NCBI RefSeq assembly: GCF_030731595.1 | Contig: NZ_JANQTS010000128.1 | Span: 1-64,000, forward strand | Origin: Yoonia sp. | GTDB taxonomy: Bacteria; Pseudomonadota; Alphaproteobacteria; Rhodobacterales; Rhodobacteraceae | Length of the DNA: 64,000 nt | Direction of reading: 5' to 3' | Shown: positions 36,520 through 54,147 of the stretch, piece after piece | How the letters are laid out: every line of letters begins with the position of its first letter | Numbering within the stretch: position 1 is the first letter of the stretch | Notes under the pieces: model-generated | Database searches by the model: none | Seen by the model: only the letters and a program-made list of their open reading frames with translations | Told to the model about the DNA's origin: nothing | Position numbers and translations under genes: made by a program

Positions 36520-36554
36520 TTGATGAGAGCGGCTCCCTCTCAGGCGCGTTGGCA

Positions 36555-38061: not shown

Positions 38062-40455
38062 TTACTGCGTGGCGGTAAAGCAATCTGTTTTGACATCGAC
38101 GCAGATCTTGCTCGCTGCATCGCGTGACATCGGACCAACTGTCACCATGGTCAGGCCACCAGCTTGGCGGAAACTAGGTGTGAACTGACCCAAGGCCGCA
38201 GAATTCTGACCAACCAGATCGCGCCAGTGCTGCTGGGCATTGTCAGAGGAACTGAACGAGCCAAGCACCGCGATATGACGACCCGCCGGTACAGCTGCCG
38301 CGACAGGGGTGGGGGCAACCTGGGCGACTGCAGGAGTTGCCACAGCAGGGGTCGCAACCACAGAGCGTGCAGCTTCTGCAACGTTTTGCTCAGCTGTTGC
38401 AGAGCGCGCGATGATCGCAGAGTTGGCCGTGTTCATCGTCGGAATGTTCATCTGTGTGCTGAGTGAAGCATCTTCCTGACGAAGCGACTCGACCCGAGAC
38501 CGAAGTTGCTGTGTGACACGGCGTGCGTCCATCCGATCGTTCACGATGCGTGGCGTGATCAGAACCAGCAGTTCTGTCTGCGAACTGCTTCTGGAGCTAC
38601 TCCCGAACAATGCGCCTGCAACGGGCAGATCCTTGAGGATAGGGATGCCGCCATTTCCGTTGGTCCGACGATCCGAGAACAGGCCACCAAGGACGATCGT
38701 TTCACCGCTATCGACTGAGACAGAACTGTCGATCACACGTTGTGAGATGATTGGGTTGCCCGTCGCCTCATCAGTGCTGCCGACAAGGCTGACTTCTTGT
38801 TGGATGTTCAAGATCACTGACCCCGACGAGTTGATGCGCGGCGTCACTTCAAAGATCACACCGGTGTCGCGGTACTCGACCGTCGAGATAAAGACCTCAT
38901 CGGTTGCACTATCCGCATTCTGTGCCGTGCGTACTGATGTCGGAACCTGATCACCAACGACAAGACGCGCGGATTCATTGTTCAGGATCATCAAGTTAGG
39001 CGATGAAATGACGTTGATTGAAGTCATGCTATCCAGCGCATCAATCACAGCATTCGCTGGTGTCCCGCCAAGCGTCAGACCAAAACCGGGAAGGTTTGGC
39101 GCAAGATCAAAGCTTTCGCCGCGCGACAGGACCGCCCGTCCACCACCATCTTCGAGGAAGTATTGCACACCATAACGCAGGTCATCATTCAAAGAAACTT
39201 CGACGATTGTCGCTTCAACCAGAACCTGCCGCTGTGGCACGTCAAGCCGATGCAGGATGCCAAGGATACGCTGGTATTCATCCGGTGTAGAGTGGATCAG
39301 CAGCGTATTTGTTGCTTCGCTGCCGACAACGCGCGTGGCGTTCAGGGTACCCTGTGGCGCAAAGAAATCTGCACTTGCTTGGATCACATCGGCATCCTCG
39401 TTCGAGGTTTCGACCGAGATCCCCAAAATCTGCGAAAGTGTCGGCGCAATATCCGAGGCACGCGCATACTTCATGTCATAGGAATAGACCTGCGCATCAT
39501 TTGCCCCCTCACGGGTCAAACGGTTGATCCAGACGGACACGTTCTCGAGGGCGCGCGGTGTCTTGGCGACCGCAAGAATCGAGTTGTTTTCCGGAATGAC
39601 CTCAAAGACTACAAGTGGTTCAAACGACTCATCCGTTTCCACCACGCGCTCAAGTCCGTTCACGATGGACTGCGCCGAACGACCATTGACGGGAAAGATA
39701 CCAACCGATCGGTTCGCAAGCCAGTCGACGTCAAAGCTCTGGATCGTGTCCTGCCAGGACTGCTGATCAACCGAAGTACCGGCCAGAACCAGAATGTTCC
39801 GCTGGGCATCAATGCCAACAATACCGTCACCCGCGAAAGGCTGGAGGATCGCCGCCATCTCCTGTGCGCCGATATTCCTTAACGGGATCACACGAAGAGT
39901 ATAGCCCGGCAGAACGTCCCGCGAGGTTGATGGCGCAATCGACAGGTTCGCTGAAAGCGGCGAGATCGCGAAAATGTCGCCACGACGCACCAGAACCGCG
40001 TTGTTCTGCGCGAGCGCAAGCTCGAAAACTTCAATCGCGGTGGTGCGTGTCACGGGCTGAGAAGAACGAATGTTCACAGTACCCTGTACGCCGGGGTCAA
40101 TGACGTAATTGACCTGCAGCAACTCGCCAAGGATCGCTGCTGCTGCCGATTCAATATCAACATTCACAAGGTTCAGCGACACAGTTCTTTCGCCGCTCTC
40201 GTTGACAAAATCGCTGTCAATCAAAAGAGGCTGACGGCCCGGAAAGATCGTGCCTTGCCCCGCTTCGACACGCTGACCACCTGTCACGCGCCCTTGTTGG
40301 CGGTTCAATGACGTATTGTCACCATTGTTGCCGAAAATATTGGCAAGCTGCCAACCCGGAAGATTGTTGTCGTTCGATGTACGGTCTGCTTGTGGGAGTT
40401 CTTCACACGCAGCCAGGAACGCGGCGACAGCCGCGAGTATTATGATTTTTTTCAT
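38062..40455 (-). CDS. gspD: type II secretion secretin with C-terminal SPOR-like domain
   Basis: A 797-residue outer-membrane secretin. The start at 40455 gives a lipoprotein signal (MKKIIILAAVAAFLAAC, lipid cysteine at residue 17). N0-N3 periplasmic domains follow, then the secretin core with the signature region VLGGLFSDRR through GIPILKDLPVAGALFGS and TELLVLITPRIV (around residues 580-650). After an alanine/proline/valine-rich linker the last 75 residues (from about 723) look like a SPOR domain (HIAVLGSFSSSDNAQQHW ... TMVTVGPMSRDAA). SPOR domains bind denuded peptidoglycan, so this secretin may anchor itself to the wall; the lipid may replace a pilotin. Last gene of the minus-strand gsp operon. 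The fusion is seen; its role is inferred. Confidence 0.93.
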   Translation of the reverse strand: MKKIIILAAVAAFLAACEELPQADRTSNDNNLPGWQLANIFGNNGDNTSLNRQQGRVTGGQRVEAGQGTIFPGRQPLLIDSDFVNESGERTVSLNLVNVDIESAAAAILGELLQVNYVIDPGVQGTVNIRSSQPVTRTTAIEVFELALAQNNAVLVRRGDIFAISPLSANLSIAPSTSRDVLPGYTLRVIPLRNIGAQEMAAILQPFAGDGIVGIDAQRNILVLAGTSVDQQSWQDTIQSFDVDWLANRSVGIFPVNGRSAQSIVNGLERVVETDESFEPLVVFEVIPENNSILAVAKTPRALENVSVWINRLTREGANDAQVYSYDMKYARASDIAPTLSQILGISVETSNEDADVIQASADFFAPQGTLNATRVVGSEATNTLLIHSTPDEYQRILGILHRLDVPQRQVLVEATIVEVSLNDDLRYGVQYFLEDGGGRAVLSRGESFDLAPNLPGFGLTLGGTPANAVIDALDSMTSINVISSPNLMILNNESARLVVGDQVPTSVRTAQNADSATDEVFISTVEYRDTGVIFEVTPRINSSGSVILNIQQEVSLVGSTDEATGNPIISQRVIDSSVSVDSGETIVLGGLFSDRRTNGNGGIPILKDLPVAGALFGSSSRSSSQTELLVLITPRIVNDRMDARRVTQQLRSRVESLRQEDASLSTQMNIPTMNTANSAIIARSATAEQNVAEAARSVVATPAVATPAVAQVAPTPVAAAVPAGRHIAVLGSFSSSDNAQQHWRDLVGQNSAALGQFTPSFRQAGGLTMVTVGPMSRDAASKICVDVKTDCFTATQ

Positions 40456-40530
40456 GCTCTGCCTCATCAGCCCCGCCCCAAATCTTGTGCCTGGGTGCGC
40501 TTTTATTAGCTGGACATTAACAACAGAGCC

Positions 40531-41190
40531 TTAGCCAAGTGATGCGAAATTACGGACAATGACGAAAATGATACACAGGTGTGTTCCATATGACACGCCC
40601 CTCTGAACCGCCGCCCTTCCGTGAATCCGCACTCTGATAGCGATTTCAACAAGTCCGGAAAGTGCCGCAAAACCAATGAGTAAGAAGCTTTCGAATGGTG
40701 CGAGGAACGCTCCCAGACCCGCCACGAGCCAAACATCGCCAAGGCCCAAGGCCTCTTTTTTCATTGCCCAAAGCACAGTTTGACGCACAGAAAGCAAGAC
40801 GCCTGCTGGCAGCGCCATGTGGATCAAGATGCGCAATGGGTCCGTGGATTGAAAGGCAAAGATAAGCCCCAGAACGATGACACCGATTGTCCATTCGATG
40901 GGCAACCAACGCCACTGCCAGTCGATACCTGCAAGTAGAAAAAGTAGGCAGAGCAAAGCGGCAGTCGACGTCAAACTGGTGTCGATCATCATGACAGCGA
41001 CGACCGAACCGACCATCCCAAGGCCAAGGCCGAGCGAAACTGCACGATACCAACTCCGGGTAAGATGGGGGTCGAAAACACCTCTAAGCAGCCCGCGAAC
41101 GACGATTGGAAGGGGGCCAAAGGTCAAGGCAACGATCAGGACAACGACCGGCAAAGCCGTAACGATGAACCCACCAGTCAGCCCGGTCAT
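40531..41190 (-). CDS. gspO: prepilin peptidase, minimal form
   Basis: A 219-residue membrane protein with about six helices and the two aspartate sites of A24 aspartic peptidases: LAGIDWQWRWLP and GLGDVWLVAGLGAF. It would cleave the pseudopilin leaders of GspG-K. It lacks the N-terminal cytoplasmic domain with two CXXC pairs found in full PilD/GspO, so it may cleave but not N-methylate. It overlaps gspK by 4 bases and precedes gspD by about 75 bases. Confidence 0.85.
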   Translation of the reverse strand: MTGLTGGFIVTALPVVVLIVALTFGPLPIVVRGLLRGVFDPHLTRSWYRAVSLGLGLGMVGSVVAVMMIDTSLTSTAALLCLLFLLAGIDWQWRWLPIEWTIGVIVLGLIFAFQSTDPLRILIHMALPAGVLLSVRQTVLWAMKKEALGLGDVWLVAGLGAFLAPFESFLLIGFAALSGLVEIAIRVRIHGRAAVQRGVSYGTHLCIIFVIVRNFASLG

Positions 41191-42032
41191 CTGAGGATTT
41201 CCAGACCCAAAACATCAAACCGCGTTCGCCCGCGCCGGAAACTGATGCCGCGTTCTGCGACGGTCGCGACAATCTCGACACGAACGCCGCTCGCCAAGAT
41301 GCCCTCTGCCTCGATGGTGTAGACAGGCCCTTCTGTTCCGCCCAGCCAGATCCCAGCGGTACCAAGCTGAGGGAGCGGCTGCCCAGCGCTTCGGCTGTCA
41401 ATAATCCGCGACACGTCACTTGGCCCGACCCCAGGAACGGCGCGTAGCAGGTCGGCAGATGCGGTCCTTGGGTTGATTTGCGCAGTGCCGCTATATGTGG
41501 TCAGCATCCGCCGCGCTTGCAAACTGGCCTCCTGTGGAAAGCCCAACTGCGAAAGCATGATCGCGATCGACGGGAAATCGCCTAAAGCATTGGCGTCTTG
41601 GCGCTGTGAGACAATCACCTGCGCAATTGTCACTGCATCAAATGCGTCGATGCCTTGCCCGTCTCCCAAGCTTTGCAGTGCGGGCCCGATCATCTGAACG
41701 GGGGCATGATTGACATCAAGTTTCCCGCCCTCGTCCCAGATCCGATAGATGGCTTGGCCCTCGGCCATTGAGATGGCAATCGGTGTGCCATCTCTTGGGC
41801 TTCTGGGCACATCGTCTCCAACCCGTCCCAAATCGGCCAAAGCAACGTTCAGCGCACTGCGCGCCAATTCGACTGCACGGCTTGTCTCGACTTCGGCGCG
41901 GGTCGACAGGGCTGTTTGCCTTTGTGTTGCGAGATAGCTGGATGCCGCAAGCAGCAAGCCCAGCGACATCCAAAGGACGGTGAGCAAGATGAAGCCGCGA
42001 AAACGACCGCGTCTTGGGATCAGCGCAACTCG
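41187..42032 (-). CDS. gspK: type II secretion minor pseudopilin K
   Basis: A 281-residue minor pseudopilin. The N-terminus has a basic stretch and prepilin helix (RRGRFRGFILLTVLWMSLG). Two helix-hairpin-helix-like parts typical of GspK appear (INPRTASADLLRAVPGVGPSDVSRI). The best start is TTG 42032 with GGAGGGG five bases upstream; the ATG-like start at 42077 would lie inside gspJ and put too many residues before the leader. It overlaps gspJ by 13 bases. GspK caps the pseudopilus tip. Confidence 0.88.
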   Translation of the reverse strand, partial: RVALIPRRGRFRGFILLTVLWMSLGLLLAASSYLATQRQTALSTRAEVETSRAVELARSALNVALADLGRVGDDVPRSPRDGTPIAISMAEGQAIYRIWDEGGKLDVNHAPVQMIGPALQSLGDGQGIDAFDAVTIAQVIVSQRQDANALGDFPSIAIMLSQLGFPQEASLQARRMLTTYSGTAQINPRTASADLLRAVPGVGPSDVSRIIDSRSAGQPLPQLGTAGIWLGGTEGPVYTIEAEGILASGVRVEIVATVAERGISFRRGRTRFDVLGLEILR

Positions 42033-42691
42033 CAAGGCTGCCCCTCCAACCCACGAAGACCCTGACGCGAGACACAACTTGCACTGCGTGTCGCTGGCAT
42101 CGGCGCAACGATCATCCGCTCAGCGCCGCGTTCAATTGCGACAGCATAGGGGAGGCCCTGTTCCGCCGCGGGCTCGTACGTCCAAGCCCGAGCATTCAAC
42201 CCAATTCCGGCCGCCATATAATAAACGAGACTGAGAGGTTGGTCCGAGACAATAACATCGCTGGCCCGTATCGGCTCATTGCCAAGTCGCACGTCGCGGA
42301 CATCAAAGTGCCGCGTGGCAGAAAGACGGTACAATCCATCCTCTTGCGTGATCCGAAGCGCAATCATAACGGGGCGATTGCTGCGGCTTGTACTGTCATC
42401 CACAATCAAGCGAAATTCTGAGGGCGACCCAAAGAAACGGCTTTCGATTGTACCAAAACCGTCTGTTGTTGCCGACCCCGCCCAAGCCTGCAAAACACGT
42501 CGCGCCGTAAGCCAGTCTGTTGCTTGTTGTTGCAAGACAGAAGGCTGCATCGCCGTCTGTCGCAACCCAAAGGTCGCGCCGGTGAGTAAGGCAATCGTCA
42601 GCGCAGCCACTGAAAGTGCAACCAGTGCCTCGGCCAAGATAAAGCCGCGGGCCGCCGCGTGTCGGCGTCGTCTTGCCCAGCGCGTCGTCAT
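42020..42691 (-). CDS. gspJ: type II secretion minor pseudopilin J
   Basis: A 223-residue protein with a prepilin-type leader (basic start, then ARGFILAEALVALSVAALTIAL). The fifth residue of the helix is the expected glutamate. The periplasmic part is divergent but of normal length for GspJ. Overlaps gspI by 4 bases and gspK by 13. Assignment as J rests on order and size. Confidence 0.82.
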   Translation of the reverse strand: MTTRWARRRRHAAARGFILAEALVALSVAALTIALLTGATFGLRQTAMQPSVLQQQATDWLTARRVLQAWAGSATTDGFGTIESRFFGSPSEFRLIVDDSTSRSNRPVMIALRITQEDGLYRLSATRHFDVRDVRLGNEPIRASDVIVSDQPLSLVYYMAAGIGLNARAWTYEPAAEQGLPYAVAIERGAERMIVAPMPATRSASCVSRQGLRGLEGQPCELR

Positions 42692-43086
42692 AGCGGTGTC
42701 TCGACATAGCGTATACCGCGCAGCACCAAGGGGCTGCCATCCGGGCGATCCGATCCGACGGTGACATAAATGTAAAGCAGCTCATTGGCGCGGATACGAC
42801 CAAGGTCCATGTCGGCCGTTCCGCTTTCCGAGACGACATAGGACCATGCCAGCCCCTGCGCTGTCCCATTGTCTTGGATGCCCGCCCGCACAGGAATATC
42901 GACGCCAACGCGGTCCATGATCTGCGTCGCGACAAGCATCTGTTCGGCCTGGATCGTGGCGCGCTGCTCCATAAAAAGGCCCTGTGACAAGGCTTGGTAA
43001 AACCCTGTGACTGCGATGGCAGCAATCGCCAAAGAGACCAAAGTCTCGATCAGGGTAAAGCCACGTTGCCCGCCCGACCGCTTCAT
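42688..43086 (-). CDS. gspI: type II secretion minor pseudopilin I
   Basis: A 132-residue pseudopilin with leader QRGFTLIETLVSLAIAAIAV, glutamate at position five of the helix. Typical GspI length. It overlaps gspH and gspJ by 4 bases each. Confidence 0.85.
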   Translation of the reverse strand: MKRSGGQRGFTLIETLVSLAIAAIAVTGFYQALSQGLFMEQRATIQAEQMLVATQIMDRVGVDIPVRAGIQDNGTAQGLAWSYVVSESGTADMDLGRIRANELLYIYVTVGSDRPDGSPLVLRGIRYVETPL

Positions 43087-43511
43087 CGTGCGATCCGGAT
43101 TTGGCCGGTCAGCCAGTCCAATGCGACAGAACGGGTGAAATCACCGGCAACCAAAACAAGGTCCAACCCTTCGCTTTCACCAGAAGGGCGGATCACAATC
43201 CTTGCGGACTCTGTTGTGCTTGTCACACCACGCCCGAATTCATAGGAGGCCGTTGGCGTAGCCAAGCTGCGGTCTTCGCGCGAATACTGAACTTCGACCG
43301 GCTGACCTGTTTCTGCCGCCTGCAAACGGGCCTGTTGCAGAATGAGTGCAATCTCGGCCACATCGTTTTGCAATTGCGCACGATCTGAACGGCCCAGCGC
43401 AAAAATGGCGACCGTGCCAACCAATATGACAATCGCAACCGTGACCAAGACCTCGACCATGGCAAAGCCACGGGTGCTGCGACGCCTTTTGCTGCGTCTA
43501 GCCTTCCACAT
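43083..43511 (-). CDS. gspH: type II secretion minor pseudopilin H
   Basis: A 142-residue pseudopilin with a basic leader and TRGFAMVEVLVTVAIVILVG. The C-terminal domain has the GspH-like short strands (PVEVQYSREDRS). The start at ATG 43511 overlaps gspG by 14 bases; 43517 is possible too. The leader is long because of the KRRR run. Confidence 0.83.
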   Translation of the reverse strand: MWKARRSKRRRSTRGFAMVEVLVTVAIVILVGTVAIFALGRSDRAQLQNDVAEIALILQQARLQAAETGQPVEVQYSREDRSLATPTASYEFGRGVTSTTESARIVIRPSGESEGLDLVLVAGDFTRSVALDWLTGQIRIAR

Positions 43512-43935
43512 CGGCATCCACACCCGTCCCGCCGGGGCGTAGGTCCGCACCCAGCGTCCGGATGCGCACCTGCCCCTGATCCAACACATAGATATATGCG
43601 CCGCCCCATGGATCGGCGGGCAGGTTGCCATCACGCAAATAGGGCCCGTTCCAGCCCGGAATTTGATTGTTGTTTTCGACCAGCGCTATCAGACCTTCCT
43701 GTTCTGACGGATAGCGGCCCGTCTCGATCAGAAAAATATCCAAGGCGCTGCGCAACTGCGCAATCTGCGCTTCAGCGGCGTTCACACGCGAATTCTGCAA
43801 CTGGCGGATGGCCCCAGTCCCGACGAGGCCGATCAAAAGGCCCACAATCGCAACAACCACAAGCATCTCGACGAGCGAAAAGCCTGCGCTTGCCGGACGG
43901 CGGCGCTGGGGGCGGGATCTAAAACGAAATCGCAT
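43498..43935 (-). CDS. gspG: type II secretion major pseudopilin G
   Basis: A 145-residue major pseudopilin: leader with SAGFSLVEMLVVVAIVGLLIG and the GspG core (DIFLIETGRYPSEQEGLIALVEN, NGPYLRDGNLPADPWGGAYIY). The DPWG motif and glycine/aspartate-rich C-terminus fit a calcium-stabilised pseudopilin. ATG 43935 overlaps the gspF end by 17 bases. It builds the pseudopilus that pushes substrates through GspD. Confidence 0.92.
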   Translation of the reverse strand: MRFRFRSRPQRRRPASAGFSLVEMLVVVAIVGLLIGLVGTGAIRQLQNSRVNAAEAQIAQLRSALDIFLIETGRYPSEQEGLIALVENNNQIPGWNGPYLRDGNLPADPWGGAYIYVLDQGQVRIRTLGADLRPGGTGVDADVEG

Positions 43936-45154
43936 TGACGGATACGATAGCTGAAAACAATGCATAGAGGCTTACTCCGATCATCAGGCCAACACCTACA
44001 ATGAGCGCGGGCTGGAAAAGTAACAAGAAGCGTTCAAGATCGCGATCAGCGGCCTCGCGCATATCGTCTGAAGTGCGGCTGATCATCCCGCCAAGATCGC
44101 CGGATTCTTCGCCGATACGGATCATTTCGATCGCTTCCTGCGGTAGCAGGTTGGCGCGGCGGAAGGCCGCAGAGAGCGAGGCGCCGCTTTCAACATCTTT
44201 GGTAACAATCGCCATACCCTGTCGAACAGGCCCTGCCGGGGTGGATTTTGACACAACACGCAATGCGCCGCTCAAGGTGATTTCGCGGCTGAGCAAAGCA
44301 CCGAGCACATAAAGCAACAACATCATCTGGTTGCGCAGGACAAGTTTCCGGATCAGCGGCACGCGATTGCCTACGCGAACCAAGATACCATTCAGCAATC
44401 CCCGCCGCGCAGCAAGATAGGCTGCCGCGCCAAGCAGAAAAAAGGCCAATACAATGACCGGCCAAAGGGCGGCAAGAAATGCGGACAACGCAAAGACAAC
44501 GCGGCCCATAGTTGGCACCAACGCGATCCGGTCTTCAACCAATGGCAAGAACTGCGGGATGATCGCGATCATGATCACCCCGACAGAGAGGATTGCGACA
44601 AACATGAGGATTCCGGGATAGGTCAGCCCTGTGATAATCCGCCGGCGCACATCAAGGCGGCTTTGCATGATCTCTGACGCGGTCGTGAGTGCGCTGCCCA
44701 TGTCACCCGATGCTTCGGCGCCGCTAATCAAAGACAAGACAACCGGGTCATTCATGCCGGCCTTTTCCAGAAGGGCCTGTGAGAGCGGTTGTCCTTCTCT
44801 AAGACTGTCCCGGACCCGCAGCGCCGCCTTGGAGATCGGGTCGTTTCCCCCGTCACCAATGATGGCCAATGCGCGCTCTGCCTGGATTTGGCGCCCCGAA
44901 AGCTTGGCCAATCGCACAAGGAAGTCTGTCGTTTGCCGCGGCGTAAGCGCATTCTTGATGCGGATCGGCCGACCAGACCTGCCTGTTGCCGTTGCTGCTG
45001 TGCCGTCGCTGAAGTCGAGCGTGATCGGAAATAGGCCCTGAGCACGCAGCGCGCGCTTTGCCTCGGTCTGGTTGATGCCAAGCACTTCACCTGATTGCTT
45101 TGCACCGTTTGCATCTCGGGCAACATAGACGAATGTCTTTTTTGTCTCGCTCAC
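43919..45154 (-). CDS. gspF: type II secretion inner-membrane platform protein
   Basis: A 411-residue polytopic protein with two repeats of the T2SSF domain and about three membrane segments. Each repeat holds typical sequence (RLAKLSGRQIQAERALAII, later EAIEMIRIGEESGDLGGMISR). It links the GspE ATPase to the pseudopilus. It follows gspE after 12 bases. Confidence 0.94.
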   Translation of the reverse strand: MSETKKTFVYVARDANGAKQSGEVLGINQTEAKRALRAQGLFPITLDFSDGTAATATGRSGRPIRIKNALTPRQTTDFLVRLAKLSGRQIQAERALAIIGDGGNDPISKAALRVRDSLREGQPLSQALLEKAGMNDPVVLSLISGAEASGDMGSALTTASEIMQSRLDVRRRIITGLTYPGILMFVAILSVGVIMIAIIPQFLPLVEDRIALVPTMGRVVFALSAFLAALWPVIVLAFFLLGAAAYLAARRGLLNGILVRVGNRVPLIRKLVLRNQMMLLLYVLGALLSREITLSGALRVVSKSTPAGPVRQGMAIVTKDVESGASLSAAFRRANLLPQEAIEMIRIGEESGDLGGMISRTSDDMREAADRDLERFLLLFQPALIVGVGLMIGVSLYALFSAIVSVNAISF

Positions 45155-45166
45155 CCGAAACTCCCT

Positions 45167-46828
45167 TTAAAAGGCTTTTACACCAAGCACGCGCATGACT
45201 TCTTCCAGCGTTGTATGACCTTCTGCGATCATGCGCACACCTTCTGACCCAAGCGTGCGTACACCACGCTTGTCTTGTGCTTCAAGTTCCTCGGGTTCCA
45301 AGGCCTCGAACAAGGCGACACGCCCCATAAAGCCTGTCTGATTGCAGGCCTCGCAACCGACGGACCTCATGAGATGCAGATTCTCCGGGTCGCTGTGTCC
45401 GCCAGAGCGTTTGTTGATCTTGTTGAAAATCTCGAAGAGCTTGGGTTGCTTGTCGCGATCAACGGGTTCCGCACAGGCCTGACAAACGCGCCGGACAAGG
45501 CGCTGGGCGGCAACCAAGCGGACAACGGATTTCATCAAATATTCCGGCACGCCAAGGTCGATCAACCGCGTCGCTGCATCACGCGCCGTATTGGTGTGCA
45601 AGGTCGAGAAAACGAGGTGGCCGGTCATTGCGGCACGCACAGCCAATTCGGCGGTTTCACTATCCCTTATCTCGCCCACCATGATCACGTCGGGGTCATG
45701 GCGCAAAACCGTTCGCAATGCCGCAGCAAAGGTCCATCCCAGCTCTGGGTTCACTTCGATCTGCTGCAAACCCGGTGTTTGAATTTCAACCGGGTTTTCA
45801 ATCGTGACAATCTTCCGACGGCTGTCATTGAGTTCATTCATCGCGGCATGCAACGTAGTGGTTTTGCCGCTGCCTGTCGGGCCTGTCACAAGGATCAAGC
45901 CATTAGGCTGTTTGATCGCTGTGCCCAGCCGTTTGGACACATGCACAGGCAGCTTGAGATTGGCAAGTTTCGACAGACCTTCCTGATTGTCCAACAGCCG
46001 CAAGACAATTGTTTCGCCATGGATCATCGGCGCACTTGCGACCCGCATATCGATCTCGCGGCCAGCAAGACGTTGGCGAATCCGACCATCTTGCGGCAAA
46101 CGACGTTCGCTGATGTCCATTCCGGCGAGGATTTTCAGACGCGAGACGACACCTTCGTAAATGCCCGCTTCAGGGCTTTGGACCTCGAGCAGTTCACCGT
46201 CAACGCGCAGACGGACACGTGCGGCCGTCTTGCTGGGCTCAAGGTGAATATCCGTTGCTCGCATTTCCAGCGCTGTATCGAACAAAGTCTCAAGATACCG
46301 GACAGTTGGTGCATTATTGGCAAGCTCTGTCAGTTTATCTGTATCGAGCGCAAACCCCATGCCACCCGCAACGACCTTGGACGTATCTGAGCCCTCCAAG
46401 GCAGCAGCAGCGGCGCTGCGTGCCATGGCCATTTCAATGTCACGATCGGTTGCAACGCCCAACTCTAGGGTTGCACCAAAAATCATATCCAAAGCAGCAA
46501 GCGCTTGGTCATCAAATGGATCAGCAACAGCAAAGAAGGCGCGTTGGTCCGATATTTCGATCGGTGCGATCGCCGACCTTTGCAGGTAATCCGCCGAGAG
46601 GCGCGAGTCCGTTGGCAAACGTGCCGGCAGATCGTCAACGGTCAGCAACGGGTAATTGAGGTGTTGGGCGCTGGCTCGGGCCCATTCCTTTTGCGAGATG
46701 AGGCCCAACCGGTCCAAGACAGTGCGCACCGGCTGCCCAGTGGCCGCGGCTGCATCATTTACCTTTGCCAAATCGGCATCAGTAAGCGTTCCGTTTTCAA
46801 GGAAAATAGCGGGCAGTTTAATGCGCAT
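45167..46828 (-). CDS. gspE: type II secretion ATPase
   Basis: A 553-residue hexameric ATPase. It has the N1/N2 T2SSE domains (LADADLAKVND region), Walker A GPTGSGKTTTLHA near residue 320, Asp and His boxes, Walker B VIMVGEIRDSETAELA, and a zinc site with two CXXC pairs (CQAC around residue 447 and CEAC around 490). It powers pseudopilus growth. First gene of the minus-strand operon gspEFGHIJK-gspO-gspD. Confidence 0.95.
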   Translation of the reverse strand: MRIKLPAIFLENGTLTDADLAKVNDAAAATGQPVRTVLDRLGLISQKEWARASAQHLNYPLLTVDDLPARLPTDSRLSADYLQRSAIAPIEISDQRAFFAVADPFDDQALAALDMIFGATLELGVATDRDIEMAMARSAAAAALEGSDTSKVVAGGMGFALDTDKLTELANNAPTVRYLETLFDTALEMRATDIHLEPSKTAARVRLRVDGELLEVQSPEAGIYEGVVSRLKILAGMDISERRLPQDGRIRQRLAGREIDMRVASAPMIHGETIVLRLLDNQEGLSKLANLKLPVHVSKRLGTAIKQPNGLILVTGPTGSGKTTTLHAAMNELNDSRRKIVTIENPVEIQTPGLQQIEVNPELGWTFAAALRTVLRHDPDVIMVGEIRDSETAELAVRAAMTGHLVFSTLHTNTARDAATRLIDLGVPEYLMKSVVRLVAAQRLVRRVCQACAEPVDRDKQPKLFEIFNKINKRSGGHSDPENLHLMRSVGCEACNQTGFMGRVALFEALEPEELEAQDKRGVRTLGSEGVRMIAEGHTTLEEVMRVLGVKAF

Positions 46829-47178
46829 TCTTAATGTCCATCAATACAGTTCGCCGCCTATGATTCTTGCCCGTTGCTGTACCGCAAGGCGATTCTATTG
46901 CCTTCGAATACCATCACTATTTCCAGAATGAGGGCCATTTTGCGCCTAAATATACGGCAGCTTCGCGGAATTGGGCCTTGTTGGTGGATATAACGACTGT
47001 TTTCGCTGAAATGTTTGCCTATTGGCAACGGTCATGAGCGTTTTTACGCCCATTAACTAGTCATGAATAGAGATACTTGCCACACGCGTTTTTTTTGGAC
47101 CATTTATGTTCATCCTGTGTTTATATTCATGCTAACGTTCTGTTCTTATTGAGACCCTCCCAAACAGAGAGCTGCCAA
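46829..47178. other. 350-base divergent control region between gspE and the DUF1800 gene
   Basis: No coding frame is credible here. It is more AT-rich than its neighbours and has an eight-T run (47089-47096) and TTTATATT (47120-47127), the best -10 candidate for the rightward genes. I could not identify a confident promoter pair, operator or terminator. Both secretion transcripts probably start here. Confidence 0.5.
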
Positions 47179-49869
47179 ATGACATCGCACCATATTCGAC
47201 TGCTTGCAATTACGCCCGTATTGTTGACTGCCATGGCAACAAGCGCTTTGGCCCAAGAAGCCGTTATATCGAACGCAGCCGTAGCTCTTGAAGATCAGGT
47301 GATTGCGGCATCGGTACAGACCGAAACTGTTGTGTTTCCGCTTCAGATCAGCGTGACAACTGCCGGAATGTACGTCTTTACGTCCCCCGCCCATAACCCT
47401 GTCAAAGTGACTCTCGACGGAGAGGTCATCATGACGGCTCCAGAAGTTCCCAGTGACAGTGTGGAACCTTTCAAAGTGATCACGATGCTAAGCGCTGGCG
47501 ATCATCTTCTGGAGTTGGAGGGTGTTGATCTGACACTTGAGCAGGTCGCGCTGGTGTCCATGCACGAGATTGGCGGGGAACCGGTCAGCGTGGCAAATAT
47601 TGCGAAGGCCCTGACAGCTGAAGAGGCCGAGGTCCTTGCTGCGAGTTTATCAAACAACCCGGCAGCGCCAGCAAACGCTGCTATGCAAGAAACACAGATT
47701 GCATCCCTTTCGGTTCAGCCACGCCAACCATTTGTGATCGGCGGTGGTTCTGCTGATCGCGGCACAGCTGTTTCCAGCGGTGACGTTGGTGGCGATACCG
47801 CAATGACCAATGGTGCTGGTATGCAAATGGCCTCCGCCAATCCGCAGGCAGCGCGTTCGGCAGGAAGCGTTTCCGGATCGGTCGGCACATCCTCGTCAGG
47901 AACGACAGAGCAAGTTGCAAGTTCCGGAGGCGGGTCGGTGAGCACTGGCGGCGGCTCTGTCATAACCCCAGGAACCGTTCCGCCCCCAGCGGGAACGCCC
48001 GTTGCAGGCGCGCCGGTTGTACCAACTCCTACTGTCCCACCGTCCACCGTTCCAACACCGACACCGACACCAGTTGTCCCTGTTGTCATGCCGGCAGATA
48101 TGGCACGCGCAAGCGCGCTTACACCGCCGACCAACGTAGCGCTGACACAAGCTGTTCAGATTACCGGCGGACCCTCCGAGGCAGGAATCGTTTCATCCAG
48201 TGGCCAGACCCTTTTTGGGCAGGTTATGCAGCCAGAGACATTCAACATCGTTAACGCTGTTATTTTGCCATCGGGGCGTGAAGTTACTGTCGATGTGGGT
48301 CAAGACACTGGTCAATTTGCGGTGCGCCTGTTCCCGGAAGATTTGATAACCGGAGAAGCAACAGTGACAGTGACGGGGGCATCCCGCGTGAATTCCGAAG
48401 TCACGACTGTTCCTGTTTCCTATGAATTCCAAGCTGCAATGGCAGGTGACGGTATTTCAATGGCGCTCTCGCGCATGACAAATGGACCGACCGCCGAGCT
48501 TTACGCACGCGTTCGTGAGATTGGCATCACCAACTATATAGATGAGCAGCTGAACCCTAGCGCAATCAACGACGCCGTGTTCAACAGTCTCAATGCGGAT
48601 GCATTTCTTCATACAACCAGCAACGACCAAGGGCGCATTTTGAGTGGTCTGTTCCGTAACAACCTTGCACATTCTGCGTTTTCCGAAAAGCAACTTCAGG
48701 ATGTCATGAGCGACTTCTGGAGCAACCATTTCTTTGCATCGACAAAAGACAGCGATATTCGCCAGCAGAACGTCGAAGACCGTCAGTTCTTCCGCGAGAA
48801 CGCTTTCGGAGATTTTGAAGATCTTTTGCTCTATTCCGCCCGAAGCCCGTTGATGTCTCAGTTCCTTGATAACGACCGGAACCGTGCCAATAGCCTCAAT
48901 GAAAACTACGGCCGCGAGATTCTCGAGCTGATGACTGTTGGCGTCAACGGTGGATATACGGAAGAGGACGTTATCCAATCCGCGCGCATCTTCACTGGCT
49001 GGAACTACCGCCGGACGAATAGCGGCGTTGACGACGCGCCCCAACTCTTTGAGTTTGAATTCCGTGAAGGCGACCATGATTCAGGAGACAAGACATTCTC
49101 TGCTCAGTTCCTAAACGGATTTGTCATGCCAGGCCGCTCCGGTGCAGCTGGCGTTCAAGAGGGTGAAGAATTTATCGCCTTGCTAGCCAACGATCCACGT
49201 ACCCAGAACTATGTCTGCGGCAAGATCGTGCAGCGGTTCGTTGCAGATGTGCCTCCGGCGAACTTTGTCCAGCTCTGCGTCGATACTTGGCAAGCAACAA
49301 ATGGCAATTCGGGTCAAATCCTGCGCGCAATTCTGACGGCGCCGGAATTCATCACAACCGTTGAACTGCAGCGCAACAAGGTAAAGACACCCTATGAGTA
49401 TGCTGTATCCGTCATTCGTGCACTGGGTCTGAGCCCAAATCTTGATGATACCGAGGGCAGCTTTTTCGAGCGCTTCCGTCAAGCGAGCCGTGAGGGTGGT
49501 TTCGACCCACTTGAATTTGGGCTTCCGACAGGTCTGCCTGAAACAGGATCAGCATGGACAAGCTCTGCGTCAATGATCGGCAAGTTCCGCGCAGTGACAG
49601 AGACGGTAGAGCGCAGCAGTACGCATAACCTCGACCTTCAGACAAAGATTGAAGAGGCCGGTATCGAAACCGCAGAAGAGGTTGCCGCCTATCTCCTCAC
49701 GATCGCAACCGCAGATCGCTACTCTCTTGAAGAATACGAGCAACTAGTAGCTGTTTTGAAAGGGATGGACGGGATCTTTGATCCTCGCAATCCTGATGTG
49801 AATGAGACTGACGCATTTGAACGGGCTGCCGGCCTGCTCGTCGTCCTTCCAAGTTTCCAATTGCAATAA
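47179..49869 (+). CDS. large exported DUF1800 protein
   Basis: An 896-residue protein. A Sec signal peptide ends near residue 26 (ATSALA). Next come a beta-rich region (about 30-150), a serine/glycine-rich spacer, a proline/threonine-rich linker (about 264-304), and an Ig-like strand set (about 320-420). The DUF1800 domain occupies about residues 427-896, with the family signature NYGREILELMTVGVNGGYTE near residue 575 and ARIFTGWNY. DUF1800 function is unknown; genes are usually paired with DUF1501, as here (35 bases downstream). The start ATG 47179 gives the signal peptide; an upstream TTG frame to 47077 does not. Location in the gsp locus suggests a secreted substrate. Confidence 0.88.
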   Translation: MTSHHIRLLAITPVLLTAMATSALAQEAVISNAAVALEDQVIAASVQTETVVFPLQISVTTAGMYVFTSPAHNPVKVTLDGEVIMTAPEVPSDSVEPFKVITMLSAGDHLLELEGVDLTLEQVALVSMHEIGGEPVSVANIAKALTAEEAEVLAASLSNNPAAPANAAMQETQIASLSVQPRQPFVIGGGSADRGTAVSSGDVGGDTAMTNGAGMQMASANPQAARSAGSVSGSVGTSSSGTTEQVASSGGGSVSTGGGSVITPGTVPPPAGTPVAGAPVVPTPTVPPSTVPTPTPTPVVPVVMPADMARASALTPPTNVALTQAVQITGGPSEAGIVSSSGQTLFGQVMQPETFNIVNAVILPSGREVTVDVGQDTGQFAVRLFPEDLITGEATVTVTGASRVNSEVTTVPVSYEFQAAMAGDGISMALSRMTNGPTAELYARVREIGITNYIDEQLNPSAINDAVFNSLNADAFLHTTSNDQGRILSGLFRNNLAHSAFSEKQLQDVMSDFWSNHFFASTKDSDIRQQNVEDRQFFRENAFGDFEDLLLYSARSPLMSQFLDNDRNRANSLNENYGREILELMTVGVNGGYTEEDVIQSARIFTGWNYRRTNSGVDDAPQLFEFEFREGDHDSGDKTFSAQFLNGFVMPGRSGAAGVQEGEEFIALLANDPRTQNYVCGKIVQRFVADVPPANFVQLCVDTWQATNGNSGQILRAILTAPEFITTVELQRNKVKTPYEYAVSVIRALGLSPNLDDTEGSFFERFRQASREGGFDPLEFGLPTGLPETGSAWTSSASMIGKFRAVTETVERSSTHNLDLQTKIEEAGIETAEEVAAYLLTIATADRYSLEEYEQLVAVLKGMDGIFDPRNPDVNETDAFERAAGLLVVLPSFQLQ

Positions 49870-49904
49870 GCATCGGCACCAACCGAATAGGAAAGGTTTC
49901 CAAA

Positions 49905-51263
49905 TTGAAAAACCGTAGAGAATTTCTAAAGTCCTCAGCAATGGTAGCCGCTGCAAGTATGGCGGGTGTCGCAGGCGCACCGAAGTTTTCATTTGGCCAA
50001 TCAAATGAGAGCGGGCGGCAGAAAACATTCATTAAGGTCTTCATGCGCGGAGGTGCGGATGGTCTGCACCTTTTTCCTGCGGTAGGTGACGACTGGTACT
50101 ACACGCACCGTCCGAATATCAACATTCCAAGACCAGATTCCGGCACCGAACACAGCGCATACAATCTTGGAATGCTCGCTGGGGACAACGGTTATCGCGG
50201 TATGAACCCTAACTTGATTGGTCTGCAACGGATCTGGGAAGACGGCCGCCTGATGGTTGCGCCCGCAACTGCAATGGATGATGGCGGGCGGTCACACTTT
50301 GACAACCAACGCTGGATTGGTACGGGTGCGCGTAACAACATCATCGATGGTTACCTGAACCGTTATCTTCAGAATACAGCCAACCCAATGCACCCGCTGC
50401 GCGGGGCTGTCCTTGGCAAGAATGGCCTCAGCACAGAAGCCCGGGGCACGTTAACGATCCCGGTCGTTCAGGCAGCTTCAAGCTTTGACCTTAGGAACGA
50501 CAACTTCTGTACGACGGGTGGGTGTGAAGACAACCAGTTGACCGAATTGATGCATCTGATTGCATCGCATGAGGTTGACGAAGCTGGCATGTCCGCGGAA
50601 GTCCGTGAAAACCAGGTCATCATGCTTGAATCAATCGCCGAAGTTCAGAATTCGAGCATGTTCGACGTGCCGGCTGGTGAAGCGGGAATGCTTGGTTTGA
50701 ACTACTCCAACTCCGATCTGGGCAGGGGTTTGAGACTGGCGGCACAGCTTATCAAGGCTGGTGTGCCACTAGAGGTAGCTGCATTGGATTGGAATGTCGG
50801 CTGGGATACTCACGCAAACCAAGTTCCTGACAATATCTCAGGTGTTGGTGATAGGTCGTTCGGTTTCAATCAGCGCCTGTTCCAGGGCGCCAATGACTTC
50901 CTGACCTTCTACCTTGATATGAGCGGGTCCGGAAATTTGATAGATGACGTTGTCGTATTGGTTGGCACTGAATTTGGCCGTACCGTCATCGAAAACGGGA
51001 GCCGCGGTACAGACCACGGTAAAGGAAGCACATGGTTTGCATTCGGTGGACCAACGGTAGGTGGCCTTGCACCAGATATCACAACGCTTGATCCTGCTGC
51101 ATTGTTCCAGAACCGGTTTGTTCCGACAGCGACCGAGTACCGCGACCTCGTCGCCGAGATCATGGTCCGCCACATGGAAATGCCTGTTGGATTGGTTCAA
51201 ACAGTATTGCCGGGTCACCAGTTCTTTGATCACAGACTATTCACGAGAACCGCGACAGCTTAA
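49905..51263 (+). CDS. Tat-exported DUF1501 protein
   Basis: A 452-residue protein of the DUF1501 family, distantly related to sulfatase/alkaline phosphatase-fold enzymes. The N-terminus is Tat-like (NRREFLKSSAMVAAASMAGVAGA). Conserved family stretches: FMRGGADGLHLFP, LDWNVGWDTHANQ, and VLVGTEFGRTVIENGSRGTDHGKGS, the last likely part of an active or metal site. A cysteine pair lies in CTTGGC. The start is TTG 49905 with AGGAAAGG upstream. Its partner is the DUF1800 gene. Reaction unknown. Confidence 0.88.
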   Translation: MKNRREFLKSSAMVAAASMAGVAGAPKFSFGQSNESGRQKTFIKVFMRGGADGLHLFPAVGDDWYYTHRPNINIPRPDSGTEHSAYNLGMLAGDNGYRGMNPNLIGLQRIWEDGRLMVAPATAMDDGGRSHFDNQRWIGTGARNNIIDGYLNRYLQNTANPMHPLRGAVLGKNGLSTEARGTLTIPVVQAASSFDLRNDNFCTTGGCEDNQLTELMHLIASHEVDEAGMSAEVRENQVIMLESIAEVQNSSMFDVPAGEAGMLGLNYSNSDLGRGLRLAAQLIKAGVPLEVAALDWNVGWDTHANQVPDNISGVGDRSFGFNQRLFQGANDFLTFYLDMSGSGNLIDDVVVLVGTEFGRTVIENGSRGTDHGKGSTWFAFGGPTVGGLAPDITTLDPAALFQNRFVPTATEYRDLVAEIMVRHMEMPVGLVQTVLPGHQFFDHRLFTRTATA

Positions 51264-51288
51264 GCAAAGCGACAGTTGAAACCTAACG

Positions 51289-51317
51289 CGCTGAAGGGCA
51301 CACTGCCCTTCAGCGCA
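51289..51317. terminator. strong hairpin between DUF1501 and gspL
   Basis: GCGCTGAAGGGCA and TGCCCTTCAGCGC form a perfect 13-bp stem with a CAC loop, 26 bases after the DUF1501 stop. No T-run follows, so it may be a weak terminator or an RNA-stability element that separates abundant DUF1800/1501 message from gspLM. Confidence 0.5.
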
Positions 51318-51342: not shown

Positions 51343-52407
51343 ATGACGACCTCTCCAGACATGTCATCCAACCCATCGACGACCCAAAAGTCCGTTAATA
51401 CCATGACGAAGCTGGTCAATTTGGTTTCGGCAAGCGTGTCGATGATGAATGAGCCGCCGAAGATCCCCAAAAAAGCGCCGCCTCCAGAGCTCTATCTTGG
51501 GGACAGATCATACACTTTGCGTCTAGACGAAGATGTGTTCGGCTTTACGGATAAAGCCGAGTTGATCGCGCGTTTGCAGGAATTGCCGGAACGTGAAATC
51601 GACCTTGTCTTTGCGGGCCGAACAGCGCTTGACCTTAGCTTTCAGATTCCCAACGGCCCTTTCAACGACTTGCAGGCCATGATTGAGACCGAGCTTGAGT
51701 TTCGCTCGCCGATTCAGCGCGAACAATGTGTCTGGTTCTGGTCCGCACAGGAAACCAAAAAGGGCGATTGGCTAGTCGAGGGTGCGATTGTTCTAAAAAG
51801 CTCGATTGACTGGGTCTTGGAGGGCATCAAGAACACTGGAAAGTCCATCAATCTGGCGCGCCGGCACCGTGAAGACGGATCACTCCGTGTTGGCGTTGAG
51901 CCTGATTGGATAAAGAAGCCGTCCATTTTGGCCAAAGCCAGCGGCCCTCTCGCGCGCCTTGGGAAAATTCCGCCCGCGCTTCGAATGCCTCTGGCAGCTT
52001 TTGCAGTCTTCAGTGTTTCAGCCATTGCACTCTTTATCGCGCAGGCGGCCAATTACTCCACCGTCTCTGATAGAGCAGCACAGGCCAGCGCAGAACTGCG
52101 TGAATTGGCGGCAGCTCAAGCGATTACACAAGGCCTTCGAGACCGGCGCGCTTTTGGGGATGCCCGCGTCGCCGTCATCGGAACGCTCGCTGCAACACTT
52201 CCAGACGGCGTGTGGCTGGAACAATTGATCATCCAAGACAGTGATCTAACCCTCATTGGTTTCGCGCCATCTGCCGCAGAGGTGACTCGTCTGCTTTCTA
52301 CGCTCGATTCAGTGACCGATATTGAATTCGGATCACCTGTCACGCGCGACAATACCCAGAATCTCGAACGCTTCCGTATCAACGCGACTCTGACTGGGCT
52401 GCTTTGA
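51343..52407 (+). CDS. gspL: type II secretion protein L
   Basis: A 354-residue bitopic inner-membrane protein: a cytoplasmic actin-like part (roughly 45-200), one membrane helix (about 212-236) and a periplasmic ferredoxin-like part with the PilN/GspL pattern TLPDGVWLEQLIIQDSDLTLIGFAPS. GspL recruits the GspE ATPase. Sequence is divergent from enterobacterial GspL; order before gspM supports it. Start may be at 51343 or at a later ATG (51361 or 51403). Confidence 0.82.
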   Translation: MTTSPDMSSNPSTTQKSVNTMTKLVNLVSASVSMMNEPPKIPKKAPPPELYLGDRSYTLRLDEDVFGFTDKAELIARLQELPEREIDLVFAGRTALDLSFQIPNGPFNDLQAMIETELEFRSPIQREQCVWFWSAQETKKGDWLVEGAIVLKSSIDWVLEGIKNTGKSINLARRHREDGSLRVGVEPDWIKKPSILAKASGPLARLGKIPPALRMPLAAFAVFSVSAIALFIAQAANYSTVSDRAAQASAELRELAAAQAITQGLRDRRAFGDARVAVIGTLAATLPDGVWLEQLIIQDSDLTLIGFAPSAAEVTRLLSTLDSVTDIEFGSPVTRDNTQNLERFRINATLTGLL

Positions 52408-52937
52408 TGAGTAGTTTCGCCTTCTATAACCCCACTTTGGTGCGTCGTGTCGGGACGCTATTGGTGATGGGAACATCTATTTTGCTGATCCTGCTGACGC
52501 TGTTTTTGGCCAATGTTGCGCGCAACAACTACGATGACATTGCGCTAGAGCAAGAGACAATTCTGCGCGCACAACGCGCCACAACCGAACAGGTTGCGCC
52601 CGATGTTCTCTCAAAATTCTATAGCGCCGACACACCGCAACTCGCGCAATCACAAATGCAAACCGAGATGCAGGCCCTTGCCCAGCAAAACCAGGTCCGC
52701 CTAGAGGTCATACGCGCGGATCAGATCGAACAGCTGAGCGGTGCGCTTCGTATGGGACTGACGCTCAACGGTGTTGTTTCGGAAAGTCAGCTTGGGGGCT
52801 TTCTGGAAAGCCTCACAGCGCATGAGCCAAAGATCGTTGTCGAAAGCGTCAGTCTGCGGCGGGCGCGGGCGACAAACCAGACAGTCGATGACCGACCTCT
52901 GGCGATCGAACTGAAGCTGAGCGGGTTTACAAGATAG
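52407..52937 (+). CDS. gspM: type II secretion protein M
   Basis: A 176-residue protein with one membrane helix (about residues 13-38) and a periplasmic domain of the GspM/PilO kind (LNGVVSESQLGGFLESLTAHEPKIVVESVSLRRA). It pairs with GspL in the inner-membrane platform. The start overlaps the gspL stop by one base (TGATG). Confidence 0.82.
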   Translation: MSSFAFYNPTLVRRVGTLLVMGTSILLILLTLFLANVARNNYDDIALEQETILRAQRATTEQVAPDVLSKFYSADTPQLAQSQMQTEMQALAQQNQVRLEVIRADQIEQLSGALRMGLTLNGVVSESQLGGFLESLTAHEPKIVVESVSLRRARATNQTVDDRPLAIELKLSGFTR

Positions 52938-52939
52938 CC

Positions 52940-53407
52940 ATGAACCTTTCACCGCATATCCAAACGACGGTACCATTGGCGGCAGGTCTGCTTTCAATCG
53001 TCCTTGCCGGTTTGATCTGGATGCCGCTTGGCCAAGAACCTCGCCTGTCATCGCGTGATGGCACAGAGGCAGCCGCCCCCACGGGCCCGGACCCACAGAC
53101 ATTGATTGCAGCGGGCGCACAAGAACTCCTTGCCAGACCTCTTTTTCATATCACGCGGCGTCCACCTGAAATCGCAACGGTGGCGGTGCCTGCTCCGGTG
53201 GTTGTCACGATTAGCCTCACGGGGATCGTCGAAAGCGACAGTGTGCAGGTGGCGTTGCTGCGCTTGTCAAACAACAATCAAATGTTTCGGGCAAGGGTGG
53301 GTGACAAGGTCGGAAATTGGGAAGTGTTGGACATCACGCCGAGCGCCGTAACGGTCATAACCCCAGACGGCAAGCGCGAAGTTATCGGACTCTCGCAAGG
53401 AAATTAG
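52940..53407 (+). CDS. short GspC/GspN-like type II secretion protein
   Basis: A 155-residue protein with an N-terminal membrane helix (about residues 12-29), a linker, then an HR-like beta domain (VVTISLTGIVESDSVQVALLRLSNNNQMFRARVGDKVGNWEVLDITPSAVTV). The HR domain of GspC/PilP docks on the secretin. It lacks a PDZ or coiled-coil C-terminal module, so it is a minimal GspC or a GspN of the alphaproteobacterial type. Two bases after gspM; convergent with regA. Confidence 0.72.
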   Translation: MNLSPHIQTTVPLAAGLLSIVLAGLIWMPLGQEPRLSSRDGTEAAAPTGPDPQTLIAAGAQELLARPLFHITRRPPEIATVAVPAPVVVTISLTGIVESDSVQVALLRLSNNNQMFRARVGDKVGNWEVLDITPSAVTVITPDGKREVIGLSQGN

Positions 53408-53425: not shown

Positions 53426-53977
53426 CTAGCGCGGGCTGCGTTTCGCCAGTATCCGCTGCAAGGTCCGGCGGTGCATCGACAGACGCCGTGCCGTTTCCGA
53501 AACATTCCGGTCGCAAAGTTCATAAACCCGCTGAATATGTTCCCAACGCACGCGATCAGCGCTCATGGGGTTTTCAGGTGGCGGGGGCAACGCATCTGTC
53601 CGCGAGAGCAGCGCGTTGGTCACATCGGTGGCATCTGCCGGCTTTGCGAGGTAGTCGGTCGCCCCGATCTTGACCGCTGCAACCGCTGTAGCAATGGCGC
53701 CATAGCCTGTCAGAACAACGATTCTGCTTTCTGGGCGACGAGCGCGCAGCGTTTCCACCACGTCCAGCCCATTCCCATCCTCGAGCCGCAGATCAACAAC
53801 CGCATAGGCGGGCGGGCGGGCGGTTGCTATCGCCTGTCCTGCCGCAACCGAACCTGCCATCTCGACATCGAAACCTCGTTTCTCCATCGCTTTTGCCAGA
53901 CGACGCAAAAACGCTTCGTCATCATCAACGAGGAGAAGACTTTTGTCTTCGCCCAGATCCAACGCCTCGATATTCAT
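53426..53977 (-). CDS. regA: global redox response regulator RegA/PrrA
   Basis: A 183-residue two-component regulator: receiver domain with phosphoacceptor Asp in VVDLRLEDGNGLD, the four-proline hinge (ALPPPPENP), and a Fis-type HTH (NVSETARRLSMHRRTLQRIL), all hallmarks of RegA. RegA switches photosynthesis, carbon and nitrogen fixation and respiration genes when oxygen is low. Divergent from regB; no senC/prrC lies between, and gspC/N-like converges downstream. Confidence 0.95.
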   Translation of the reverse strand: MNIEALDLGEDKSLLLVDDDEAFLRRLAKAMEKRGFDVEMAGSVAAGQAIATARPPAYAVVDLRLEDGNGLDVVETLRARRPESRIVVLTGYGAIATAVAAVKIGATDYLAKPADATDVTNALLSRTDALPPPPENPMSADRVRWEHIQRVYELCDRNVSETARRLSMHRRTLQRILAKRSPR

Positions 53978-54147
53978 CCGTTGCCCTAACTGTGCTTACC
54001 GAGCTTTTAGTTAGGCCGCCAATGCTTTGCGTCAACTGCAACCATACCCTGCAAAACCAACAAAGCACCGCACAGCAACCAAGCCGCATTGATCCTGCGC
54101 CATTTCGCCTTATCCTTCCAGATCATCAGCATATCGGACCCAACAGC
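53978..54147. promoter_or_regulatory. regA-regB divergent control region
   Basis: 170 bases with no gene. An inverted repeat CCTAACT (53985-53991) and AGTTAGG (54009-54015) lies just upstream of the regA start and could be an operator or leader hairpin. No confident -35/-10 was found. Confidence 0.4.

Follow-up and report, generated by a model that had tools for sequence, protein, structure and literature searches.

A type II secretion system and a distinct clade of DUF1800-DUF1501 protein pairs form one module in Yoonia and related bacteria

Analysis of a 64,000-nucleotide stretch of DNA (the window; contig NZ_JANQTS010000128.1, here C128, positions 1 to 64,000) from the 3.27-Mb draft genome of the marine bacterium Yoonia sp. 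(assembly GCF_030731595.1) revealed a type II secretion system (T2SS) locus in which the genes of a DUF1800 protein and a DUF1501 protein are enclosed by genes of the secretion machine. This T2SS makes up one module with a distinct clade of the pair, the two having been inherited, lost and relocated together, and a dedicated tie between them is strongly supported. On balance, we consider it probable that the module is self-contained and dedicated, mainly or exclusively, to a single pair of exported proteins, in which DUF1501 would be the catalytic and DUF1800 the targeting subunit; the pair is probably cargo, because neither the machine nor this version of the pair occurred without the other in the genomes compared. 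The presence of the pair inside a T2SS locus had been proposed in an earlier note made from the sequence alone, and profile matches and open reading frames (ORFs) agree with its coordinates and gene order (Table 1). The alkaline-phosphatase-superfamily fold of DUF1501 and the extra domains of the DUF1800 protein, both described below, are additions to that note.

Co-occurrence of the pair clade and the secretion system

The distribution of the module was examined by using window proteins as queries in two samples, 56 genomes of the genus (the source genome and 55 further ones) and 394 genomes across the family, which share two genomes and together comprise 448; the bimodal scores defined what is called this type of DUF1501 and GspE. 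Within the genus, DUF1501 of this type (at least 461 bits; next best 101) was detected in 14 of 56 genomes, and GspE of this type (at least 636 bits; next best 306) in the same 14. Similarly, DUF1501 (at least 372 bits; next 86) and GspE (at least 515 bits; next 371) were found in the same four of the 394 family genomes. Overall, 17 of the 448 genomes had both the pair type and the T2SS type, 431 had neither and none had only one, with score gaps of 372 versus 101 bits for DUF1501 and 515 versus 371 bits for GspE, which places the link proposed by the earlier note beyond chance, bearing in mind that 17 carriers are not 17 independent events and that the family searches scored only the first three or four candidates per genome.

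Several results weigh against a connection of this kind when the two families are considered as a whole. Among 249 Pseudomonadota genomes, GspG was present in 27 of the 53 with DUF1800 and in 114 of the 196 without it, and when one DUF1800 locus was inspected in each of 15 of the 27 genomes with both, tblastn with the window proteins detected no gsp match within the ~20 kb fetched at any of the 15, a DUF1501 match being present at nine of them. The generic DUF1800 and DUF1501 families were thus rejected as T2SS substrates as a general rule, GspG being no commoner with DUF1800. A Pfam search of 194 genomes found DUF1800 in 78, GspG in 40 and DUF1501 in 82, so the bare presence of these families tells little. 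Because generic loci are mostly without a T2SS, the tie is valid for this subtype and not for DUF1800/DUF1501 at large. The earlier idea of a machine dedicated to the pair therefore stands for this clade, on the strength of co-occurrence, relocation and linkage elsewhere, and fails for the families in general; the pair does occur mostly without a T2SS if the generic families are meant, but not if this clade is meant (17 of 17 genomes with the T2SS).

A wider contig scan was conducted with a DUF1501 alignment, and the best 80 of 95 loci were kept. Among these 80, 26 belong to this clade. The DNA fetched includes gsp genes at 22 of the 26, and the assemblies of the other four carry this T2SS elsewhere. 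Record titles for the clade include Yoonia, Loktanella, Litoreibacter, Jannaschia, Silicimonas, Neomegalonema and uncultured Rhodobacteraceae, as well as metagenome-assembled genomes (MAGs) labelled Hyphomicrobiales and Rhizobiaceae. At six of the other 54 loci, all of them from the 21 titled Gemmatimonadota, a gspE-like gene is accompanied by gspD or gspF/G (Table 1). In L175, an operon of gspF, a pilin gene, gspK, a weak PilN/L match, gspM, gspD and gspE leads directly into DUF1800-DUF1501, and in L188 and L189 gsp genes are located ~5 kb from the pair. These T2SS-linked pairs are apparently independent of the alphaproteobacterial module. In G132 (L101), which belongs to another alphaproteobacterial family, the pair and gspE are divergent, and gspG lies beyond.

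Phylogenetic analysis of 108 DUF1501 rows (a quick method with Shimodaira-Hasegawa-like approximate likelihood ratio test, SH-aLRT, support only; 16 loci duplicating included genomes and DUF1501 frames under 350 or 370 residues were omitted) recovered one clade with an SH-aLRT of 100, which contains 23 linked and five unlinked rows. The T2SS label requires seven changes on this tree, six of them forced by well-supported branches, a count limited by near-copies and long branches; some of the changes may be losses.

Relocation and unlinked copies

In the window, the 15-kb locus is situated between ppsR (36465-37982), a photosynthesis regulator gene, and regB (ORF 53824-55551; NCBIfam RegB, 756.7 bits), which encodes a redox kinase. 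The minus strand carries gspE, F, G, H, I, J, K, O and D, and the plus strand the DUF1800 and DUF1501 genes followed by gspL, M and C. The locus adjoins regB in 10 of the 14 genus genomes; no RegB match was found in the ~20 kb fetched from G003, G004, G012 and G017, where the internal gene order is unchanged, and the locus of G018 and G054 is split over contigs. Eight module-less genus genomes were also queried, and PpsR was detected in five. In two of these five (G007 and G029), a gap of 0.74 and 0.92 kb, respectively, free of module genes, separates the ppsR match from the regB match, so that the module is present or absent as a whole; the other three had no RegB match in the ~16 kb fetched downstream. 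Base composition was considered as a sign of horizontal acquisition and found uninformative (55.4% G+C for the module versus 56.4% and 57.2% for its flanks).

Rearranged versions of the locus were detected as well. All the genes found in G109 are on one strand and their order is changed, and they are still clustered. The machine of G056 lacks the pair at its usual place, and a full pair of the same clade is present elsewhere in that genome, adjoining genes for glycosyltransferases and ATP-binding cassette (ABC) transporters as well as a gene that weakly matches O-antigen ligase (26.4 bits, cut-off 31.7). The vacated position encodes a 139-residue protein similar to the DUF1800 protein in its N-terminal domain (E 9e-10 against the genome's own DUF1800 protein and 8e-4 against that of the window). 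The gspD gene of G056 adjoins a gene for a 1277-residue SdrD_B/CarboxypepD_reg repeat protein (L088:15016-18846, plus strand), a candidate further surface substrate. In addition, the pair is present twice in G004, G018, G022 and G051, the DNA fetched around the second copy containing no gsp genes, and each of these genomes has a single GspE of this type. Ten neighbours of the second copies were scanned, which identified an RTX-repeat protein, a serine hydroxymethyltransferase, an NAD-kinase-like protein, an OmpA-like barrel and a YfbK-type VWA protein, the rest having no match. Unlinked pairs of the clade occurred only in genomes with this T2SS.

Such unlinked yet co-occurring copies (in G056, and as second copies in four genomes), the survival of the linkage through rearrangement and relocation, and the proximity of T2SS genes to further DUF1501 lineages (in Gemmatimonadota and in G132) make it highly improbable that the genes are chance neighbours or hitch-hikers without a functional tie, even though neither family has a proven function and co-occurrence of linked genes is trivial. 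It is also quite unlikely that the pair is just one of several substrates, its linkage marking a shared ancestral insertion and not dedication. The off-locus pair of G056 in its glycosyltransferase/ABC-transporter cluster, the large repeat protein beside gspD, and the independence of DUF1800 at large from the T2SS would fit such a history, whereas the window module is filled by gspD to gspC and the pair, with no other exported candidate noticed there, and the neighbours in other genomes were searched non-exhaustively.

Predicted proteins, machine and regulation

The signal RR-x-F-L-K of the DUF1501 protein was spotted by eye, and both arginines are kept in 20 of 20 aligned clade members; the Pfam TAT_signal profile gave 19.4 bits for the window protein, below the cut-off of 22.7, and matched 22 of 59 aligned DUF1501 members at E<=0.01. 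The structure model has an alkaline-phosphatase/phosphodiesterase fold. Residues D52, S130, H131, D301 and H303 are kept in all 59 aligned sequences, and E356, R359, D370 and H371 in 58, the remaining one having a gap. Together these residues appear active-site-like, with putative ligand roles read from their order in the chain. Metal ligands were set only by analogy with nucleotide pyrophosphatase/phosphodiesterase (NPP)-type enzymes and choline sulfatase, from which the protein differs in sharing ~11% identity and no significant sequence match. The CxPxR motif of formylglycine (FGly) sulfatases is absent at the proposed nucleophile of DUF1501, and a Cys pair is specific to this clade. A search of solved structures by sequence gave no significant match (best E 0.74).

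The DUF1800 protein has a Sec-like signal (read by eye only), a PA14-like domain (~48-160), a disordered linker (163-300; 68% G/S/T/P/A), an Ig-like domain (326-420) and the DUF1800 domain (~426-896), as assigned from the Pfam match (Table 1) and from fold matches of a structure model with a mean pLDDT (predicted local distance difference test) of 82.1. Foldseek gave no match for the DUF1800 domain at E<=0.001, and a second aligner barely probed the domain; a new fold is not claimed. The PA14-like domain was considered as a common T2SS export tag and rejected. In eight genomes with this T2SS type and three without, 12 strong matches (E 3e-29 or better) comprised 11 clade DUF1800 proteins and the stand-alone G056 copy, which was itself in the query alignment, and 11 weaker matches (E 1e-10 to 0.08) were in other frames of 556-3291 residues, seven of them from the T2SS-less genomes G033 and G052. 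The best weak match in these relatives has an E of 1.1e-10, and the matches lie in long frames, including G033:C2:1707779-1707949. The stand-alone PA14-like protein of G056, encoded at the vacated position mentioned above, has a signal peptide read by eye and lies between gspL and gspE (L088:5286-5702, minus strand).

That GspD and GspG pass NCBIfam T2SS models favours a T2SS over a type IV pilus; the ATPase GspE, the platform GspF and the prepilin peptidase are recognized by Pfam profiles (Table 1), and GspH, GspI, GspJ and GspC are weak or silent by profile, the gene order being conserved in relatives. The sole Pfam match of GspO (219 residues) is Peptidase_A24, an N-terminal methyltransferase-type domain not being reported. 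MshEN domains bind cyclic di-GMP, and since GspE has such a domain, secretion by this machine might be under cyclic di-GMP control.

Table 1. Features of the T2SS locus in the window and related loci
Feature	Position	Strand	Evidence
gspD, T2SS secretin with C-terminal SPOR domain	38062..40467	-	TIGR02517 419.8 bits, cut-off 351.35; SPOR 25.8, cut-off 21
gspO, prepilin peptidase (A24)	40531..41190	-	PF01478 46.7 bits
gspK, minor pseudopilin	41187..42077	-	PF03934 24.7 bits, cut-off 24.2
gspJ, minor pseudopilin	42020..42691	-	position and synteny; without Pfam match
gspI, minor pseudopilin	42688..43086	-	position; N_methyl motif
gspH, minor pseudopilin (ORF as listed; real start probably later)	43083..43634	-	GspH 18 bits, below cut-off 21
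gspG, major pseudopilin	43498..43965	-	TIGR01710 111.3 bits, cut-off 88.85
gspF, inner-membrane platform	43919..45154	-	PF00482 128.4 bits
gspE, ATPase with N-terminal MshEN domain	45167..46828	-	PF00437 386.5 bits; PF05157 41.7 bits
Divergent intergenic region gspE/DUF1800 gene; promoters presumed only	46829..47178	.	site scans
DUF1800 gene	47179..49869 (ORF open from 47077)	+	PF08811 304.4 bits, cut-off 26.1
DUF1501 gene, twin-arginine signal, alkaline-phosphatase-superfamily fold	49905..51263, TTG start	+	PF07394 62.9 bits, cut-off 27
13-bp hairpin between DUF1501 gene and gspL	51288..51316	+	10/18 loci, compensatory changes
gspL (PilN-like)	51343..52407	+	PF05137 43.2 bits
gspM, subtype b (XpsM-like)	52404..52937	+	PF10741 40.7 bits, cut-off 21.7; NCBIfam XpsM 42.6, below cut-off 60
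gspC/XpsN-like, short, without Pfam match	52940..53407	+	NCBIfam 19.3 bits, far below cut-off; synteny
Gemmatimonadota loci with pair beside T2SS-like genes	L175, L159, L188, L189, L194, L195		only L175 profiled

The SPOR domain forms the C-terminal ~80 residues of GspD. A C-terminal SPOR-like tail was recognized by eye in full-length secretin sequences from 16 of the 17 genomes with this T2SS type, and Pfam placed two of four checked secretins above and two just below the cut-off; the tail is absent from the secretins of G109 and of the Hyphomicrobiales MAG locus L144. In other secretins, the C-terminus carries a pilotin-binding S domain. According to one report, Legionella LspD is the only T2SS secretin known to have a SPOR domain, at its N-terminus (PMC9239104). 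The secretin described here shares this peptidoglycan-binding domain with LspD, in which it precedes N0 (PMC9239104), but has it at the C-terminus. Since the secretin has a SPOR domain, the machine probably engages peptidoglycan.

Probable contact with peptidoglycan, the position of the pair inside the gene set of the machine and its exceptionless co-occurrence with this T2SS subtype in the genomes searched would also suit a periplasmic accessory of the machine, such as an envelope-modifying couple that aids assembly or action of the secreton, the real substrates being encoded elsewhere. We regard such a role as unlikely. The four genus genomes with a second, unlinked pair and a single GspE of this type fit several cargoes better, a long disordered linker bearing a carbohydrate-binding-type domain fits an extracellular enzyme, and 49 further family genomes, whose GspE-family match is weaker (T2SSs of other types or pili, unsorted), have no DUF1501 of this type.

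If the pair is the cargo of the machine, as we favour, DUF1800 would reach the periplasm unfolded via the general secretory (Sec) pathway and DUF1501 would arrive folded, with its metals bound, via twin-arginine translocation (Tat); the two would then meet in the periplasm, cross the outer membrane via the GspD pore and act outside the cell or at its surface. DUF1501 is the likely catalytic subunit, a metal-dependent hydrolase or transferase of the phosphodiesterase/phosphatase type with Ser130 as the proposed nucleophile, and DUF1800 may be its partner and targeting subunit, whose PA14-like domain on a long flexible linker would reach glycan-like material. The target is perhaps glycans or phosphodiesters, a reading to which the PA14-like domain, the glycosyltransferase genes beside the pair in G056 and published chitin-synthase operons containing DUF1800 and DUF1501 (PMC5122149) lend support.

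With regard to expression, the pair had been described as transcribed with gspL, gspM and gspC; the genes do share a strand and may be transcribed together, but a conserved hairpin lies between them (Table 1). The 10 loci with this hairpin are of the regB-linked type, and it lies 3' of the DUF1501 stop codon. In the alignment, 97.7% of 130 cells pair, three pairs change on both sides (which 28 of 500 shuffles reach), as do seven cells, and the covariation score and the percentage paired were reached by none of the 500 shuffles, with the caveat that kinship among sequences can be enough to outscore such shuffles even where no structure exists. Extra pair types showed no excess over shuffles (451 of 500), and shifting the partners by one to three columns lowered pairing to 31-47%. 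The T-run is weak. It is possible that the hairpin acts as an attenuator or protects the mRNA 3' end, which would yield more of the exported pair than of GspL, GspM and GspC.

Scans of the gspE-DUF1800 region in 14 loci for PpsR, CtrA, Fnr, Pho, ChvI and RpoE-like sites, made with consensus strings, detected nothing consistent. Between 46700 and 54000, sigma-70-like sites (four versus a shuffle mean of 5.1) and terminator-like sites (10 versus 7.9) were about as frequent as in shuffles. A block around TTGGCAAC is conserved in eight of eight aligned gspE-DUF1800 regions.

Known systems and significance

The closest precedent appears to be the Hxc system of Pseudomonas with its neighbouring substrate. 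In P. fluorescens SBW25, the exoprotein gene psp is flanked by the hxc T2SS that secretes Psp, and mutation of hxcR reduces Psp in the supernatant to less than 15% (PMC2225411). LapA of P. aeruginosa is tabulated as a substrate of the Hxc T2SS in another paper (PMC4899797), and Psp and LapA are described as DING or DING-like proteins (PMC2225411). The locus described here resembles that of Psp in that a specialised T2SS cluster flanks the gene of its own exoprotein, a candidate one here. However, Psp and LapA are single proteins, and the candidate cargo here is encoded by two genes between the machine genes, with Sec-like and Tat signals. To our knowledge, Psp and LapA are unrelated to DUF1501 and DUF1800 (sequences not compared).

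Adjacent DUF1800-DUF1501 genes, with a twin-arginine DUF1501, have been reported in bacterial chitin-synthase operons, and the authors suggested a functional tie to chitin synthase; unlike the locus described here, a T2SS is not named in the part of the paper available (PMC5122149). The window pair falls in a separate clade, whose DUF1800 protein is longer, a comparison that did not include the chitin-synthase-linked sequences themselves. Neither DUF1800 nor DUF1501 was found alongside the phrase "type II secretion" in the papers searched, the abbreviation T2SS and the Pfam accessions not being searched, and the portions seen of papers retrieved with DUF1800/DUF1501, alone, together or with secretion words, contained none linking the pair to a T2SS. 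The excerpts seen of PMC4452313, PMC6653060, PMC7563939, PMC4960237 and PMC12502724 assign no function to DUF1800 or DUF1501.

A more far-reaching proposal, which we hold as possible though doubtful, is that DUF1800-DUF1501 pairs are widespread exported two-subunit enzymes of the phosphodiesterase/phosphotransferase type acting on surface or environmental glycans, and that machine and heterodimeric cargo have here become one mobile module, in which Sec-delivered DUF1800 would capture folded, Tat-delivered DUF1501 in the periplasm and carry it through the SPOR-anchored secretin. DUF1800 and DUF1501 are large, widely distributed families without known function. If T2SS-dependent secretion of the pair is true, the two families would gain a location, a route and a candidate chemistry at once.

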